Positions 12,001 to 60,060 of a stretch of DNA of 64,000 nucleotides are shown piece by piece; the first letter of the stretch is position 1, and each line of letters starts with the position of its first letter. The notes under the pieces were generated by a model. That model searched no databases. It was not told the origin of the DNA and saw nothing but the letters and a program-made list of their open reading frames with translations. The position numbers and the translations under genes are program-made. The DNA lies in contig RECY01000039.1 of NCBI GenBank assembly GCA_007693785.1, forward strand, positions 1 to 64,000, in the 5' to 3' direction. Source of the DNA: Phycisphaerales bacterium (lineage in GTDB: Bacteria; Planctomycetota; Phycisphaerae; Phycisphaerales; UBA1924).

Positions 12001-12032
12001 CCTAGTGCCTTGTGCCTGATGCCTAGTGCCTT
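12001..12032. repeat. Heptanucleotide tandem array (GCCTANT type)
   Basis: Degenerate 7-base units in tandem: CCTAGT, GCCTTGT, GCCTGAT, GCCTAGT, GCCTT. The array lies eight bases past the pheA stop codon. The same unit recurs in both orientations near 34.2-34.4 kb and 60.0-60.2 kb. No inverted partner array is visible within a few hundred bases of this copy. Confidence 0.75.
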
Positions 12033-13587: not shown

Positions 13588-14967
13588 ATGACCGCGCCGC
13601 GCGACAACACGCCCGACCGCACCTCCCCCACGCCCCGGGCGGCCGCGATCGCTGCGCCGATCGGCGCCAGCGCTGCGGTTGCGTCGCACGCGGCCGCGCG
13701 CGACGACTGGGACGACTGGGTCCGCTCGCCCGAGCCCGGGCAGGTTCCCCGTCCGGCTCCGCTGCGCCCCGACGAGACCGTGCGCCCGCCGAGTAGCGAA
13801 CAGCCCCGCGACACCGAGGCGACCGAGCCGAGCTCCGCACCCGACACCACGCCCGAAGTCGACCCCGACGCCGGGCGCGACACGGGCGACACGCTCGCGG
13901 GCGATCTGGAAGCCGCGGGCGAGAGCCTGCTCAGCGACCCCGCCTGGGGCGAGTTCGCCGCCGGCGTGGGCGAGCGCCTCAGCAGTTGGGCCAGCGGGGG
14001 CCCGTTCGAGCTCCACGCCCTGCTGGGCGTCGCGATCCTCGCCGGCGTCGGGCTCTGGCTCTTCGGCGCACGCCTCGCCAAGCCGATGTTCCTCGTCTTC
14101 GGCTTCGTCCTCGGCGCCACGCTCGGCTTCGTTCTTCTGCCCGTCTTCGGGCCGGACGTCATCGAGGGCGTTCCCTCGCCCTACATCGGCTTCGCCGGCG
14201 GGTCCGTGCTCGGGATGATCGCGTCGGCGATCGTTTTCCGGTTCACGATCGCGCTGGCCGCGGCCGGCGTCTTCGCCGTCGCGGGCGTCCTCGCGTCGAG
14301 CCTCTACATCGACCGCTACGGCCTGCCCGACACCCCAACCCGAGCCGTCGCGGCCGCGGTGGAATCCGCCGAAGGACAGCGCAACGCCGACGGACGCGTC
14401 CGCACCGGGCGCGCCTCCATCGACCGCGGCGTGCTGGAGATGCCCCTCCGCATCGACCTCGGCCTCGGGCGACGCGCCGCGCGTGACGCTGAGGACCAGC
14501 CCAACGAACAGCCCAACGACCATCGCACCGCCCGGCCGGCCTCGCGCGAGCGCCACGCCGAGGGCGCCTGGGCCGATCCCGAAACCGGCGAGACGCGGGA
14601 GACGCTGGCCGCCCGGACACGCTCGGCCCTCGACTCCGGACGCTCCGAAGCGGGCACGTTCTGGCACTCGATCCCGCCCAAGGAACGCTTCGTCCTGCTC
14701 GGCGCGGGCATCGCCGGCGGCGTGCTCGGGCTGCTCGTCGGGCTCGCGATGCCCAAGCGATCGGCGATGCTCGTCACCGCCCTCGCCGGCTCGGCCGTCT
14801 GGCTCCTCGGGCTCGCGCTCGCCGCCGGCACGGCTCAACTCACGATCCCGAGCATGCTCGGCGAGGACCCGGCCGCACGACTCATCCTCTGGGTCGCCGT
14901 CGCCCTCGTCGGCGTCGGGGGGCAGGTCATCGTCACCAAACGAGCCAAGCCCACCCCGGCGGTCTGA
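13588..14967 (+). CDS. Multi-pass membrane protein with charged linkers, unknown function
   Basis: A 459-residue protein. Residues 1 to about 140 are Pro/Thr/Asp/Glu-rich and probably disordered. A block of about four hydrophobic segments follows (residues 145-255, with LLGVAILAGVGLWLFGARLAK), then a charged linker of about 110 residues, then about three more segments near the C-terminus ending in TKRAKPTPAV. The paired blocks with Gly-rich helices recall DUF4203/TMEM198-like proteins, but this is a weak impression. An in-frame ATG at 13519 is possible, but TATGAT at that spot looks more like a -10 element, so I prefer 13588. The neighbouring genes give no functional hint. Confidence 0.7.
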   Translation: MTAPRDNTPDRTSPTPRAAAIAAPIGASAAVASHAAARDDWDDWVRSPEPGQVPRPAPLRPDETVRPPSSEQPRDTEATEPSSAPDTTPEVDPDAGRDTGDTLAGDLEAAGESLLSDPAWGEFAAGVGERLSSWASGGPFELHALLGVAILAGVGLWLFGARLAKPMFLVFGFVLGATLGFVLLPVFGPDVIEGVPSPYIGFAGGSVLGMIASAIVFRFTIALAAAGVFAVAGVLASSLYIDRYGLPDTPTRAVAAAVESAEGQRNADGRVRTGRASIDRGVLEMPLRIDLGLGRRAARDAEDQPNEQPNDHRTARPASRERHAEGAWADPETGETRETLAARTRSALDSGRSEAGTFWHSIPPKERFVLLGAGIAGGVLGLLVGLAMPKRSAMLVTALAGSAVWLLGLALAAGTAQLTIPSMLGEDPAARLILWVAVALVGVGGQVIVTKRAKPTPAV

Positions 14968-15003: not shown

Positions 15004-15151
15004 CCGGTGCCATGGAAACGCGCAGGCCGCCGCGGCCGAAGCTTTTCCATGAGCGGGAGCGGACGGGCCCGAGTTCCATCCATGAGCGATGGGAGACGGG
15101 GAAGACCCGGAAAAGCTCCGCCGCGACGGCTCCGCGTTTCCGGGGCACCGG
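15004..15151. repeat. MITE-like element, copy 1 (hairpin terminal inverted repeats)
   Basis: The element begins CCGGTGCC and ends with the reverse complement GGCACCGG. Each end, about 45 bases, is also an internal hairpin: GGAAACGCG pairs imperfectly with AAGCTTTTCC on the left, and CCGGAAAAGC pairs with GCGTTTCCGG on the right. The outer and inner symmetry together gives a 148-base palindromic unit. It lies between convergent genes (membrane protein and nuoN). There is no coding capacity. Related copies lie at 22461-22605 and 58189-58300. Confidence 0.8.
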
Positions 15152-15176: not shown

Positions 15177-15210
15177 GTGCCACTGACCTTGTCCGCAAGG
15201 TCAGTGCTCC
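15177..15210. repeat. Hairpin module C, copy 1
   Basis: GTGCCACTGACCTTG, loop TCCG, then CAAGGTCAGTGCTCC form a strong hairpin (arms CACTGACCTTG / CAAGGTCAGTG). It follows the MITE-like element by 25 bases, as in the copy at 22630. With no T-run it is a poor intrinsic terminator, but it could still stop or stabilise the converging transcripts. Confidence 0.75.
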
Positions 15211-15230: not shown

Positions 15231-16832
15231 TCAGGGGGCTTCGGGCAGTTCTGCGGCCTGTGAGGCTCGCCCGGCGGCTTCGAGATACCGCTCGGCCTCG
15301 TCGTGGGTCATCGGGGCGTACGTCCCCGCTTGCTCGGCCGCGGTCATCAGCCCACCCGCCGCGATCGTCAGCACGATCACGCCGCCCGTCGCGACCACCG
15401 CCGCGACGCGGCGCAACGGCAGCGGCGTCTCGCGGAGCGTCTCGCCCTTCGGGTCCGGGTCGCTGAGCAGGGCCGCGTTGACCAGGCGGAGGTAATAGAA
15501 CGCCGCGATCGCGGAGTTGATCGCCAGCACCAGCACCAGCGCGATCTCCCCGGCCGCGATCCCGCTGGTAAACAGCGGCACCTTGCCGAAAAACCCGAGC
15601 AGCGGCGGCAGGCCCAGCAGGCCCAGGCTGCTGATCACGATCACCCAGCCCATCACCGGCTTCGTGCGGCACAGGCCCTTGAGGTCGTCGATGTGGTCGG
15701 CCTCGTCGGGCTCGGTGGTGTCGCCCCGGTCGTGCTCGAGGCACGCGACGATCGCGAACGCGCCGAGGTTGAGCACGCCGTAGGTCAGGAGGTAGAACAG
15801 CACCGCCGCCACGCCGTTCTGCGTGAACGACCCGTCGCCGGGCCCGGCGATCACGCCGACGAGCATGTAGCCGGTGTGCGCGATCGAGGAGTAGGCGAGG
15901 ATGCGTTTGATGCTGGTCTGCATGAGCGCGAGCGTGTTGCCAACGGTCATCGTGAGGGCCGCGATAACCCAGAGGGTGACGCGGAGCTCGGGCGGGAGGC
16001 TCTCGCCGCTGGTCCCATAGGCCCAGCCCGGGGCCGCGACGATCGCGAGGATCGCAAGGAAGCCGGCGGTCTTGGGGACGAAGGCGAGGAAGGCGCTGAC
16101 GCTTGCGGCCGCCCCCTGGTAGACGTCGGCGGTGTAGAAGTGCATCGGCACTGCGGCGATCTTGAACCCGATACCCACGATGCTGATCACCAGCCCCGCG
16201 GTCGCGATCGGGTTGAGCCCGTTGGCGGCGAAGTAGGCGTGCATCTCGGTGAGGTTGGTCGTGCCCGTGCCGCCGTAGAGCAGCGCGAACCCATAAAGGA
16301 AGATCGCGGCCCCGAGCGCGCCGAGGAAGAAGTACTTGACGCCCGCCTCCTGGCTGCGCGTGCCTCGGGTCGAAATCGCAACCATGACGTACGTCGGCAG
16401 GCTCGTCAGCTCGAGCGCGAGGAAGAGCCAGATCAGGTCGTCGGCCGAGGCGCAGAGCATCAGCCCCGTCAGGCTGAACAGGAAGAACGCATAAAACTCG
16501 CCACGGGTCGCCCGGAGCGGGTCGAACGTGCGCTGCCCGGCGGCGATCGCGCGTTCCTCGGCCCGGTCCACCGTGCCCGTCGCCAGCAGCAACAGGAGCA
16601 GGCCGATGATCGCGATCAGGCCCTTGCTGTAGTTCATGAGCTCGGGCAGCAACGCCGAGCCGCCGGAGGGCGCGAGCGAGCCGACGATGCCCGCGAGGAC
16701 GATCGCGATCGCCGCGACGGCCGCGCAGGCCTTGCGGGCCTCGATCCGCGGGCTCAGCCCGAGGATCATCACCACGCAGGTGCCGAGGAACAGGATGATC
16801 TCGGGCCAGAGGATCGCCAGCTTTTCACTCAC
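15231..16832 (-). CDS. nuoN: NADH-quinone oxidoreductase subunit N
   Basis: Antiporter-like proton-pumping subunit of respiratory complex I in the inner membrane. 533 residues with about 14 hydrophobic segments; the Mrp-type transporter core includes the typical AYSSIAHTGYMLVGV stretch and a charged Lys helix region. The usual family length is 470 to 500, the excess lying in a soluble tail (PMTHDEAERYLEAAGRASQ). The start is GTG, overlapping the nuoM stop as GTGA, so translation is coupled. Last gene of nuoJKLMN; beyond its stop lie module C and the repeat element, which may mark the transcript end. Confidence 0.95.
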   Translation of the reverse strand: MSEKLAILWPEIILFLGTCVVMILGLSPRIEARKACAAVAAIAIVLAGIVGSLAPSGGSALLPELMNYSKGLIAIIGLLLLLLATGTVDRAEERAIAAGQRTFDPLRATRGEFYAFFLFSLTGLMLCASADDLIWLFLALELTSLPTYVMVAISTRGTRSQEAGVKYFFLGALGAAIFLYGFALLYGGTGTTNLTEMHAYFAANGLNPIATAGLVISIVGIGFKIAAVPMHFYTADVYQGAAASVSAFLAFVPKTAGFLAILAIVAAPGWAYGTSGESLPPELRVTLWVIAALTMTVGNTLALMQTSIKRILAYSSIAHTGYMLVGVIAGPGDGSFTQNGVAAVLFYLLTYGVLNLGAFAIVACLEHDRGDTTEPDEADHIDDLKGLCRTKPVMGWVIVISSLGLLGLPPLLGFFGKVPLFTSGIAAGEIALVLVLAINSAIAAFYYLRLVNAALLSDPDPKGETLRETPLPLRRVAAVVATGGVIVLTIAAGGLMTAAEQAGTYAPMTHDEAERYLEAAGRASQAAELPEAP

Positions 16833-22460: not shown

Positions 22461-22605
22461 CCGGTGCCATGGAAACGCGCAGGCCGTCGCGGCCGAAGCT
22501 TTTCCATGACGGGAGCGGACCGACGCGAGATGCGCCATGAGCGATGGAAGAAGGGAAGTCCCGGAAAAGCTCCGCCGCCGACGGCTCCGCGTTTCCGGGG
22601 CACCG
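22461..22605. repeat. MITE-like element, copy 2
   Basis: Same architecture as the copy at 15004: starts CCGGTGCCATGGAAACGCG, ends CGTTTCCGGGGCACC, each end a hairpin. 145 bases; the ends match copy 1 closely while the middle differs. This copy lies in a divergent intergenic region, between nuoJ and pgsA. Confidence 0.8.
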
Positions 22606-22629: not shown

Positions 22630-22665
22630 GGAGCACTGACCTCTCGGAAGAGGTCAGTGGCACAT
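22630..22665. repeat. Hairpin module C, copy 2
   Basis: GGAGCACTGACCTCT, loop CGGA, AGAGGTCAGTGGCACAT. It is virtually identical to the module at 24061-24096, including the upstream AGAGAAGATTC, and inverted relative to the copies at 15177 and 23947. It lies 44 bases before pgsA. Confidence 0.75.
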
Positions 22666-22708: not shown

Positions 22709-23401
22709 ATGCCGGACGCCGCCGCACAACCCGCCGCACCCGCGACCGGGTGGCGCGCCCACACGCCCAACGCGCTCACCGGGCTGCGCCTGATCCTCAC
22801 CGGCGCCGTCGTCGCCCTGCTCGCGGTCGCGACGCTCGAGCCGATCGCGGACGCGAGCCCGGCCCTTGCCGACCGGCTCGCCCACGCCTGGGATCGCCAC
22901 GCGCTCGTCCTCCTCGCGGCCTTCTTTTTCATCGTCGCCGCGATCACCGACGCGCTCGACGGCTACCTGGCGCGCAAGTGGCACGCCGTCAGCGTCTTCG
23001 GGCGCGTGATGGACCCGCTGGCCGACAAACTGCTCGTGCTTGGCACGTTCGTCATGCTCGCTGGGCCCGCCTTCGAGGGGCTCGGGCTCGAGGCGTGGAT
23101 GGTCGTGGTCATCCTCGGGCGGGAGTTGCTGGTCACCAGCCTGCGGGGCGTCTACGAGGCGATGGGTGTGGACTTCTCCGCCTCGCTGAGCGGGAAGCTG
23201 AAGATGATCGCCCAATCCGCGGCGGCCCCGCTCCTGCTGATCATCGCCGCCGCCTGGACACCGACGCCCGAATCCCCCTCGCTCGCGGGCGCGATCCTCG
23301 CCTGGGCGACGACCCTGATCACCCTCGCGAGCGCCTGGCCCTATCTCGCAAAAGCCGTGCGCGCCGCACGGACACACCCGACCACGAAAGCCCGCCCATG
23401 A
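22709..23401 (+). CDS. pgsA: CDP-diacylglycerol--glycerol-3-phosphate 3-phosphatidyltransferase
   Basis: Inner-membrane enzyme that makes phosphatidylglycerol phosphate from CDP-diacylglycerol and glycerol 3-phosphate. The CDP-alcohol phosphatidyltransferase signature is complete: D-x2-DG-x2-AR-x8-G-x3-D-x3-D, reading DALDGYLARKW then FGRVMDPLADK. About six membrane segments, 230 residues. The ATG has no clear ribosome binding site; a TACCAT hexamer lies eight bases upstream (22695-22700), so the message may be leaderless or nearly so. The stop overlaps the pgpA start as ATGA, and the two enzymes catalyse consecutive steps. Confidence 0.92.
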   Translation: MPDAAAQPAAPATGWRAHTPNALTGLRLILTGAVVALLAVATLEPIADASPALADRLAHAWDRHALVLLAAFFFIVAAITDALDGYLARKWHAVSVFGRVMDPLADKLLVLGTFVMLAGPAFEGLGLEAWMVVVILGRELLVTSLRGVYEAMGVDFSASLSGKLKMIAQSAAAPLLLIIAAAWTPTPESPSLAGAILAWATTLITLASAWPYLAKAVRAARTHPTTKARP

Positions 23402-23946: not shown

Positions 23947-24096
23947 ATGTGCCACTCACCTTGGCCGCCAAGGTCAGTGCTCCCGGTCGCCCTCCTGCCT
24001 CTTCTCTCCCCCCATTCCGAAGCCCCACAACCGACAAGCGAGGAAGAAGAGAGAAGATTCGGAGCACTGACCTCTCGGAAGAGGTCAGTGGCACAT
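23947..24096. repeat. Inverted pair of module C hairpins (150-base element)
   Basis: Left end ATGTGCCACTCACCTTGG with CCAAGGTCAGTGCTCC (23947-23983). The right end (24061-24096) is its reverse complement apart from the loop-proximal bases: GGAGCACTGACCTCT, CGGA, AGAGGTCAGTGGCACAT. Similarity extends inward (TCTTCTCT on the left, AGAGAAGA on the right). The unit is thus a second small palindromic element whose terminal repeats are hairpins. It fills the gap between convergent pgpA and dinB. Confidence 0.75.
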
Positions 24097-26759: not shown

Positions 26760-27272
26760 TCAGCTCGCCGCGATCACCACGCCGAGTGATTCGTACCGCC
26801 CGCCCGCGATCCCCAGACGCGTGAAAAGGTCTGACCGGGCGTAGACCAGCTCCAGCCCCTCGCCGCCGACACGGATCACCGCCGACGGGCCCTCCGGGCG
26901 GCGCTCGTCATCGCTCCCCTCGCCGCGGATCGCGTCCAGGTGGACGAACGAGCCGTCGCCGACTACCCGCGCCCACGCGGGCCTCGGCGTCCGCCCGTTC
27001 AGCCCCCGGAGCCCCGGAGGCAGCACCGGCTCCACCCGGCACACACCCGCCGACGCGCCCGCCACAAAACGCCAACCCACCGTCACCATCCCGCGACAAC
27101 CGCCCGCACCCTCGCCCTCATCCCCGAGCCCCAGCAGACGCCCGGCGACCGCCCAACGCACCAGCAGCGACTCCCCTCGCCCCGCCCACCCCGCGGCCCA
27201 CGACACCCCCGACCCGCGCTCGGCACGCGACGACACCCCGACCACGAAGCGCGAGCCACCCAGCGCCGTCAC
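26760..27272 (-). CDS. Small unknown protein coupled to the GbsR-like regulator
   Basis: 170 residues, no recognised family, no signal peptide or membrane segment. It is Gly/Arg/Val-rich with a mixed pattern that could be a small beta domain (FVHLDAIRGEGSDDE, GGEGLELVYARSDLF). The main support is its GTG start, which overlaps the stop of the upstream regulator gene as GTGA, implying coupled translation. Its role may be tied to that regulator. It could be a spurious high-GC frame, but the overlap and ordinary C-terminal composition argue for a real gene. Confidence 0.55.
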   Translation of the reverse strand: MTALGGSRFVVGVSSRAERGSGVSWAAGWAGRGESLLVRWAVAGRLLGLGDEGEGAGGCRGMVTVGWRFVAGASAGVCRVEPVLPPGLRGLNGRTPRPAWARVVGDGSFVHLDAIRGEGSDDERRPEGPSAVIRVGGEGLELVYARSDLFTRLGIAGGRYESLGVVIAAS

Positions 27273-27952
27273 GACTCACCCCCGCCGCCGACACGACCGT
27301 TCCCAACCTTGCTCAACAGCGTCGCCGCGATTTGGAGGCCCCGCCCCGTCGGGCTCACGAACCGCTGGCTCAGACGCTCGGCGACCTCGAAGAACTCCAG
27401 CATCGCATCGAGGCGGTCGTTGTGCGCACGCAGCTCGCCCGCGTCGCCACGCGCCGCGCGACGGTCCCGGTGCAACGCCGAGGCCCCCGTCATGTCCCGG
27501 ATCTCGTGCAGCGACGCCAGCATCGGGTCGATCTCGCGCTTGATCCGCTCCCGCACGATCGCGCGGAACATCGACCACACGTCCTGCTCCGCCACGAAAT
27601 ACTCTTTCCGATCACCACGCTTGTGCGTCCGGTACACCACGCCCCAGTCGAGGAGCGCACGCAGGCTCATGCTCGCGTTCCCGCGGCTGATCTGCAGACG
27701 GTCCATGATGTCGTCGGCACACATCGGCTCGCCGGTGATGTACAGCAGCGCGTGGACCTCGGCCATCGTCCGGCTGATCCCCCACGCCCCGCCCATCTGA
27801 CCCCACACCGAGACAAACCGCTCCCGGGCCTCCTCAATCACCTGCGCGTCGGACCCCGAGCCACCGCCGCCCGACCGGTCGCCCGACGCCTCCGGGGCCC
27901 GATCGGGCCCCCGTGCTCCACCAGAACCAAGCTCGTGCGGTCCACCAAGCAT
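27269..27952 (-). CDS. GbsR/MarR-type transcriptional regulator
   Basis: 227 residues from ATG 27952. A winged HTH occupies about residues 40-125 (WGISRTMAEVHALLYITGEPMCADDIMDRLQISRGNASM in two adjoining pieces, then LLDWGVVYRTHKRGDRKEYFVAE), typical of the GbsR subgroup, which in other bacteria controls compatible-solute genes. A C-terminal helical region (DRLDAMLEFFEVAERLS) would form the dimer. The chosen ATG has GGAGG 15 bases upstream, which is long; a start further inside is possible. The frame continues upstream to 28201, but that part covers a terminator-proximal dyad and looks non-coding. Two dyad sequences upstream (27993-28013, 28158-28193) are candidate operators for autoregulation. 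Confidence 0.85.
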   Translation of the reverse strand: MLGGPHELGSGGARGPDRAPEASGDRSGGGGSGSDAQVIEEARERFVSVWGQMGGAWGISRTMAEVHALLYITGEPMCADDIMDRLQISRGNASMSLRALLDWGVVYRTHKRGDRKEYFVAEQDVWSMFRAIVRERIKREIDPMLASLHEIRDMTGASALHRDRRAARGDAGELRAHNDRLDAMLEFFEVAERLSQRFVSPTGRGLQIAATLLSKVGNGRVGGGGES

Positions 27953-34190: not shown

Positions 34191-34225
34191 AAGGCACTAG
34201 GCAATAGGGACTAGGCATTAGGGGG
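34191..34225. repeat. Heptamer array, left arm of inverted pair
   Basis: Units ACTAGGC, AATAGGG, ACTAGGC, ATTAGGG in tandem directly after rpmG. This is the reverse complement of the GCCTANT arrays and pairs with the array at 34353-34387. Confidence 0.75.
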
Positions 34226-34352
34226 AGAGGGCTTGGAGAGCAGAGAGAGGCGAGAAAGTGGCGTTCAAAAGATTTGTCGCTGCTTTCCGAGTCTCTTCTC
34301 TCCACTGATGTCCGCGGCCTCACCGAATGCCCGACCCGTCCCACGACGCCAC

Positions 34353-34387
34353 AGGCCTATTGCCTAGTGCCCAATGCCTATTGCCTT
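34353..34387. repeat. Heptamer array, right arm of inverted pair
   Basis: GCCTATT, GCCTAGT, GCCCAAT, GCCTATT, GCCTTA in tandem, ending seven bases before tRNA-Trp. Together with the array at 34191-34225 it could form a long stem around a 127-base loop that holds no gene. Confidence 0.75.
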
Positions 34388-58188: not shown

Positions 58189-58300
58189 CCGGTGCCCCGG
58201 AAACGCGGAGCCCGCTTCGGGCAGAGCTTTTCCGGGCTAGGTGCGTCGTGTGAGGCCGACATGGAAAAGCTTCGACCGCGAGCTCAGCTTTTCCGTGACG
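58189..58300. repeat. MITE-like element, copy 4 (divergent)
   Basis: Starts CCGGTGCCCCGGAAACGCGG; the left hairpin closes with AGAGCTTTTCCGGG (58222-58235). A second hairpin at 58261-58296 has ATGGAAAAGC on its left side and CAGCTTTTCCGT on its right. No GGCACCGG right end is seen, so the element is worn or truncated. It overlaps the 3' end of the gene at 58284-58742. Confidence 0.65.
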
Positions 58301-60021: not shown

Positions 60022-60060
60022 GGGAGGCATTAGAGATTGGGCATGAGGCACTAGGGGCAG
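60022..60060. repeat. Heptamer array, left arm of second inverted pair
   Basis: Units ATTAGAG, ATTGGGC, ATGAGGC, ACTAGGG: the reverse-complement form of GCCTANT. It starts 17 bases before the trpG start codon, so it lies in that gene's leader. Confidence 0.7.

Follow-up and report, generated by a model that had tools for sequence, protein, structure and literature searches.

The repeated units found at 15004-15151 and 22461-22605, and as a worn copy at 58189-58300, of the window (the whole 64-kb stretch of DNA that was analysed) are most probably REPINs, in which two outward-facing REP-type hairpins are moved as one by the only RAYT (TnpA_REP) of the genome acting in trans; a rough probability of 0.9 was given to this reading. 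Four characteristics of REPs and REPINs were observed: dispersed short palindromes located mainly between genes, an unpaired, conserved tetranucleotide head 5' of the hairpin foot, pairs in excess of single arms, and a RAYT gene flanked by copies. REPs rank with the most frequent repeats of bacteria, and how a RAYT picks its REP and the cleavage site is an open question. The present analysis allows unexplained Phycisphaerales repeats to be annotated as an element whose likely mover is named.

Units in the window

Direct reading of the sequence agreed with the preliminary description of the first two units, which start with CCGGTGCC and end with GGCACCG(G), and each end of which folds on itself. 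The third was likewise a worn copy, with an intact arm C and a degenerate second arm that had lost its head. The features of this family (referred to as family A) were as follows.

15004-15151, + strand: REPIN copy 1, consisting of arm M, a spacer with GCGGACGG, and arm C
15006-15051, + strand: arm M of copy 1, GGTGC head and CATGGAAAcGC..GCtTTTCCATG hairpin with an inner helix (covariance model, 70.4 bits, E 1.2e-12)
15106-15149, - strand: arm C of copy 1, GGTGC head and CCCGGAAAcGC..GCtTTTCCGGG hairpin, followed by CT (67.8 bits)
22461-22605, + strand: REPIN copy 2, in the gap between the divergent genes nuoJ (-) and a pgsA-like CDP-alcohol phosphatidyltransferase gene (22709-23401, +)
22463-22508, + strand: arm M of copy 2 (covariance model, 68.3 bits)
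22560-22604, - strand: arm C of copy 2 (covariance model, 67.0 bits)
58189-58300, + strand: REPIN copy 3, worn, with an intact arm C at 58191-58236 (65.6 bits) and a headless second arm at ~58262-58300

Copy 1 was located between the 3' ends of two convergent genes, one ending at 14967 and the other nuoN-like (15231-16832, -). When folding energies were compared with those of dinucleotide shuffles, the z values were -5.0 (15004-15151), -5.5 (22461-22605), and -3.8 (58189-58300), and for all three copies none of 200 shuffles folded as well as the real sequence.

Arm anatomy and polarity of the unit

Each unit end was a single hairpin arm of 36-53 nt, where REP palindromes measure about 20-65 nt. 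Behind the GGTGC head came a stem of 8 bp, then a C-T mismatch followed by two G-C pairs, and beyond a 3x3 internal loop an inner helix, variable in length and sequence, that changed in a compensatory way. In an alignment of 51 distinct arms with 18 base pairs, 10 of these pairs varied on both sides, 99.2% of the cells were paired, and the covariation score was 0.247, versus 0.081 in shuffles and at most 0.039 in controls with slid (shifted) pairing.

The two ends had been described as imperfect inverted copies of each other. Both were indeed hairpins, but they were not equivalent: the stem of arm M was CATGGAAA/TTTTCCATG and that of arm C CCCGGAAA/TTTTCCGGG, and the differences between them were compensatory changes. 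An M-type arm was combined with a C arm in 42 of the 49 pairs read (close variants counted), and the remaining seven, on contigs C30, C32, and C43, were C-C pairs with one shortened arm each. The units on these contigs formed a shorter REPIN subfamily of 112-134 bp, with a C arm and a C-type arm of 36-39 nt in which the inner internal loop was apparently missing. The spacer beside arm M retained CGGG-n-GCGGACGG. Of 24 C arms, 21 were followed by a CT dinucleotide, either directly or with one base in between, but it was present after only 3 of 19 M arms (absent in the other 16). Its lack after arm M is a point against the REPIN reading, and from the difference between the arms, cutting is predicted on the C-arm side.

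Copy number and distribution in the genome

The genome from which the window derives is a draft of a single species (3.06 Mb, 45 contigs, 95% complete). The expectation that many copies would exist was borne out, with about 45 places detected by a DNA search and 116 arms (E < 1e-3) by the covariance model of the arm, a search that had been proposed in the preliminary description. The 116 arms were resolved into 50 head-out inverted pairs (112-172 bp) and 16 single arms, corresponding to a single-to-pair ratio of 0.32, where a value below 2 is taken to indicate REPINs (PMC3116915). According to a crude gene caller, 86% of the sequence was coding, yet 24 of 33 copies lay outside the called genes and the other 9 overlapped one; 10 of the 24 sat between convergent genes. 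Since the copies differ from one another (nearest-neighbour identity, 77-94%), the family may by now have lost most of its activity.

The compensatory changes in the helices and the frequent position between convergent genes might also be expected of a structured RNA (a terminator, mRNA stabilizer, or riboregulator) kept for its function and not by transposition, and REPs elsewhere acquire such roles. On the other hand, no match to the element was found at the gathering score among the Rfam 15 covariance models, whose only matches in the window were three tRNAs; furthermore, both orientations are used, the head and tail are conserved though unpaired, and the element is missing at a corresponding site in relatives (see below). 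An origin as a functional RNA is thus considered very improbable, while a secondary RNA role is possible.

The RAYT gene

The units, of ~145 bp, contain no gene, as stated in the preliminary description, according to which a transposase from elsewhere would be needed if they were mobile, and which had proposed a search for a RAYT. Searches of the genome with PF01797 and NF047646 yielded a single match above the cut-off, an intact gene at C13:27098-27637 (-), whose product we propose to act in trans. The protein passed the NCBIfam equivalog REP_Tyr_transpos (NF047646; 106.5 bits, cut-off 80) and contained the core motifs of Y1 HUH enzymes: MPEHVH (HxH), WQ, and the catalytic Tyr as Y-x-x-x-NP. 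The best PDB match of its predicted fold (mean pLDDT, 89.6) was 4er8 (E 4.6e-10), the solved complex of E. coli RAYT with a REP hairpin, which was also the best match by sequence.

Two copies of the element (26942-27083 and 27653-27794) bracketed the RAYT frame at ~15 bp from each end. These flanking copies differed from most others, their arm M carrying GTGG and their arm C GGAGA. This difference would fit REPINs spread by another RAYT, either lost or encoded in the 4-5% of the genome that is missing from the assembly, and family B (see below), which has no RAYT of its own, indicates that loss of a RAYT happens or that one RAYT serves several families. However, the sole RAYT carries family A on both sides, and flanking by its own palindromes is the normal REPtron layout (PMC6006769, PMC8266576); a different mover is therefore regarded as improbable, and the flanked RAYT as the likely one.

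Known RAYTs bind single-stranded REPs through the guide and an irregularity of the stem, and cleave them at a CT next to the hairpin (PMC8266576). By analogy with IS200/IS605 and the biochemistry of E. coli RAYT, each arm would fold on single-stranded (lagging-strand) DNA and be bound by the RAYT through its head, mismatch, and stem, with the 5' GTGC serving as the putative guide that chooses the cleavage site. The RAYT tyrosine would then cut close to the conserved CT immediately 3' of arm C, and the single-stranded intermediate would be joined elsewhere with no target duplication. The long cruciform to which both arms contribute probably represents the quiet form.

Relatives, empty site, and proposed mode of insertion

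Among 100 genomes of this taxonomic family, half had a relative of the RAYT, but the arm was not found in any of the 99 besides the present one. The exact arm pattern, with 75 matches in this genome and none for the reversed control, gave none in 396 other genomes of the class, and a search of viral contigs likewise failed to detect the element; a phage part and a widely shared RNA were thereby ruled out.

Empty sites in relatives had been suggested as a check. The nuoJ-pgsA gene pair that surrounds copy 2 was conserved in 19 relatives, and no arm was present in the gap between them in any (61-286 bp, median 164 bp). The gap is 396 bp in this genome and includes the 145-bp unit and a 61-bp stretch with a family-B palindrome; the comparison is one between genera, in which intergenic bases do not align. 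Neither outcome named against a mobile element, a lack of further copies or conservation in relatives as an RNA, occurred: further copies exist, and no relative carries the element as a conserved RNA. The spacer of one family-B REPIN (L017 1445-1690) contained a family-A REPIN (C19:9241-9381). In 26 copies, examined with boundary shifts of 0-5, duplications of 2-8 bp were no commoner than in shuffled pairs. The empty site, the nesting, and the lack of duplication are consistent with single-strand insertion, the movement itself being inferred from sequence comparison.

REP/BIME and MITE had been named as the nearest known types; the former held, as REPIN, whereas MITE in the sense of a DDE-transposase element did not, because of the missing target-site duplication. 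Inverted ends, a length of ~145 bp, and the lack of an internal gene would all suit a MITE mobilized by a DDE transposase through terminal inverted repeats. However, no boundary choice tested revealed a target-site duplication, both ends fold into hairpins of their own that are preceded by an unpaired, conserved head, and the family brackets a Y1 HUH transposase. The MITE reading was rejected on the result from the 26 copies, and is highly improbable. The bracketing of the RAYT, the absence from relatives, and the lack of target duplication together identify the units as a lineage-specific REPIN family with its RAYT, for which we infer movement, and not as a DDE-transposase MITE or a conserved RNA.

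Second and third palindrome families

Another palindrome family of the genome (referred to as family B), GTGCC-ACTGACCT..AGGTCAGTG-CTCC, comprised about 74 arms, 64 of which formed 32 head-out pairs, mostly of 131-160 bp. It shared the GTGCC head with family A, and CT directly followed 34 of 35 of its hairpins. The window contained the following.

15177-15210, + strand: single family-B arm, GTGCC-ACTGACCTTG..CAAGGTCAGTG-CTCC, 26 bp from copy 1
22630-22664, - strand: single family-B arm, adjoining copy 2
23949-24094, no strand assigned: family-B REPIN, head-out pair of CACTGACC palindromes with GTGCC heads on both

Family-A units lay within 150 bp of a family-B arm in 10 of 31 cases, versus 3.1 expected, and a value as high was reached in 1 of 1000 placements. 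A RAYT specific to family B was not found in the genome; either one RAYT serves all families, or that of family B is gone. A third stem, CACGGTTTGG, shared the head and tail, and a third small palindrome family, GGTGCC-ACGGTTTGGATTCCGATCCAAACCGT-GCTCCC, adjoined family-A copies (flanks of L013, L018, and L027; L216 618; L222 5519 and 7741).

The GTGC head among related RAYT loci

Among the heads of 115 arms read, 108 were GTGC, 5 were GTGG, and 2 were others. The canonical guide GT[AG]G was thus represented by GTGG in 5 of 115 arms only and by GTAG in none, and for this reason the family was not placed in the GTAG-tagged superfamily but classified as a GTGC variant. Membership of the CGTC-tagged REPs was ruled out by the GTGC head. 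At hairpin feet in 464 kb, GTGCC was the commonest 5-mer (79, versus a background of at most 11); the exception to this background was GGAGC (43), the other end of family B. The REP heads given in the article texts of PMC3733652 and PMC6006769 are GTAG, its variants at positions 2-3, and GTGG; GTGC does not occur in those article texts.

Among 71 loci around RAYT relatives, 39 had GTGCC at the foot of a hairpin no more than 300 bp from the gene and 8 had it in the far control (800-1400 bp, where more sequence was scanned); for GTAG the counts were 2 near and 3 far. A looser scan of 111 loci gave GTGC 134, GTGG 49, and GTAG 2. The simple hairpin scan supports only an enrichment near versus far and not a comparison of head types across phyla: at the E. 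coli rayT locus, it did not isolate GTAG, the REPs there lying within larger palindromes. The stems of the palindromes beside related RAYTs varied from genome to genome; in one relative (G033) the RAYT palindrome was dispersed at many places, and in another (G051) it occurred beside the RAYT only.

Most of the related RAYTs contained the motif WQ-x-GGG-(Y/F)D, in which, compared with E. coli, three residues are inserted into the guide-contacting loop. The insertion was seen, e.g., in the Planctomycetota RAYT of locus L031 ((-) 1249-1788, residues FWQSGGGYDRN). At least two GTGC/GTGG heads were present in 44 of 57 loci with the insertion versus 11 of 53 without it (p 4e-9, kinship ignored), suggesting that the insertion may be linked to the changed guide. 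From sequence comparison, the GTGC tag appears to be an undescribed variant common to many Planctomycetota. A broader proposal, which we put forward tentatively and consider unlikely as a whole, is that a RAYT branch of Planctomycetota and neighbours uses a GTGC guide, the GGG insertion in the guide loop having changed together with the fourth guide base, and that within one genome a single RAYT would spread several REPIN families with unlike stems by reading head, tail, and shape, and not the stem sequence.

Comparison with known systems

REPINs are already known as a kind of element, and it is the guide variant that is apparently undescribed. As in the REPINs of Pseudomonas fluorescens SBW25 (PMC3116915), an inverted REP pair is the replicative unit, pairs outnumber singles, a RAYT is linked, and two alternative folds, a long hairpin or a two-hairpin clover, are available. 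The ends of the SBW25 REPINs are symmetrical, whereas here fixed compensatory changes distinguish arm M from arm C and the unit is polar; furthermore, the arms here are longer with an inner variable helix, and the head is GTGC in place of GTAG. The E. coli REP/BIME system (Y, Z1, and Z2 with RayT; PMC8266576, PDB 4ER8) shares the long mismatch-interrupted arms, unlike arms within one unit, a single REP-flanked RAYT gene, CT beside the hairpin, and the protein fold. It differs in its guide, GTAG, and in the RAYT of this genome GGG is inserted into the loop by which the E. coli protein contacts its guide (W94-Q95 to R104).

The GTAG- and CGTC-tagged superfamilies, reported also in Planctomycetes in the article text of PMC3733652, likewise consist of small tagged palindromes, often in inverted pairs; the degeneracy of GTAG given there concerns positions 2 and 3 (GYAG, GTRG, GTMG, and GTGG), in contrast to GTGC here. 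The CnGA-footed structures of TnpA_Y1 class 3 (PMC6006769) are similar in occurring in Planctomycetes as atypical palindromes beside a Y1 gene, but class 3 has Y----Q and W[TA], whereas the present RAYT, with Y-x-x-x-NP and WQ, corresponds to class 2 and its foot is GTGC. The RAYT experiments in the literature compared here concern GTAG guides, and a clade in which RAYTs sit next to GTGC palindromes whose stems are particular to each genome offers a natural series on which the guide rule can be tested.

Another repeat, distinct from REP hairpins, was also noted: arrays of a 7-base unit, CCTARTG, arranged as inverted pairs 110-270 bp apart. A three-unit pattern gave 57 matches in the genome versus 0 for the reversed control, and further inverted pairs were present on C9, C12, C13, C24, C29, and C35. 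The arrays in the window were at 34192-34222 (-)/34355-34386 (+), 60039-60055 (-)/60193-60223 (+), and 12001-12031 (+), and the pair at 34192-34386 stops 8 bp before a tRNA gene.
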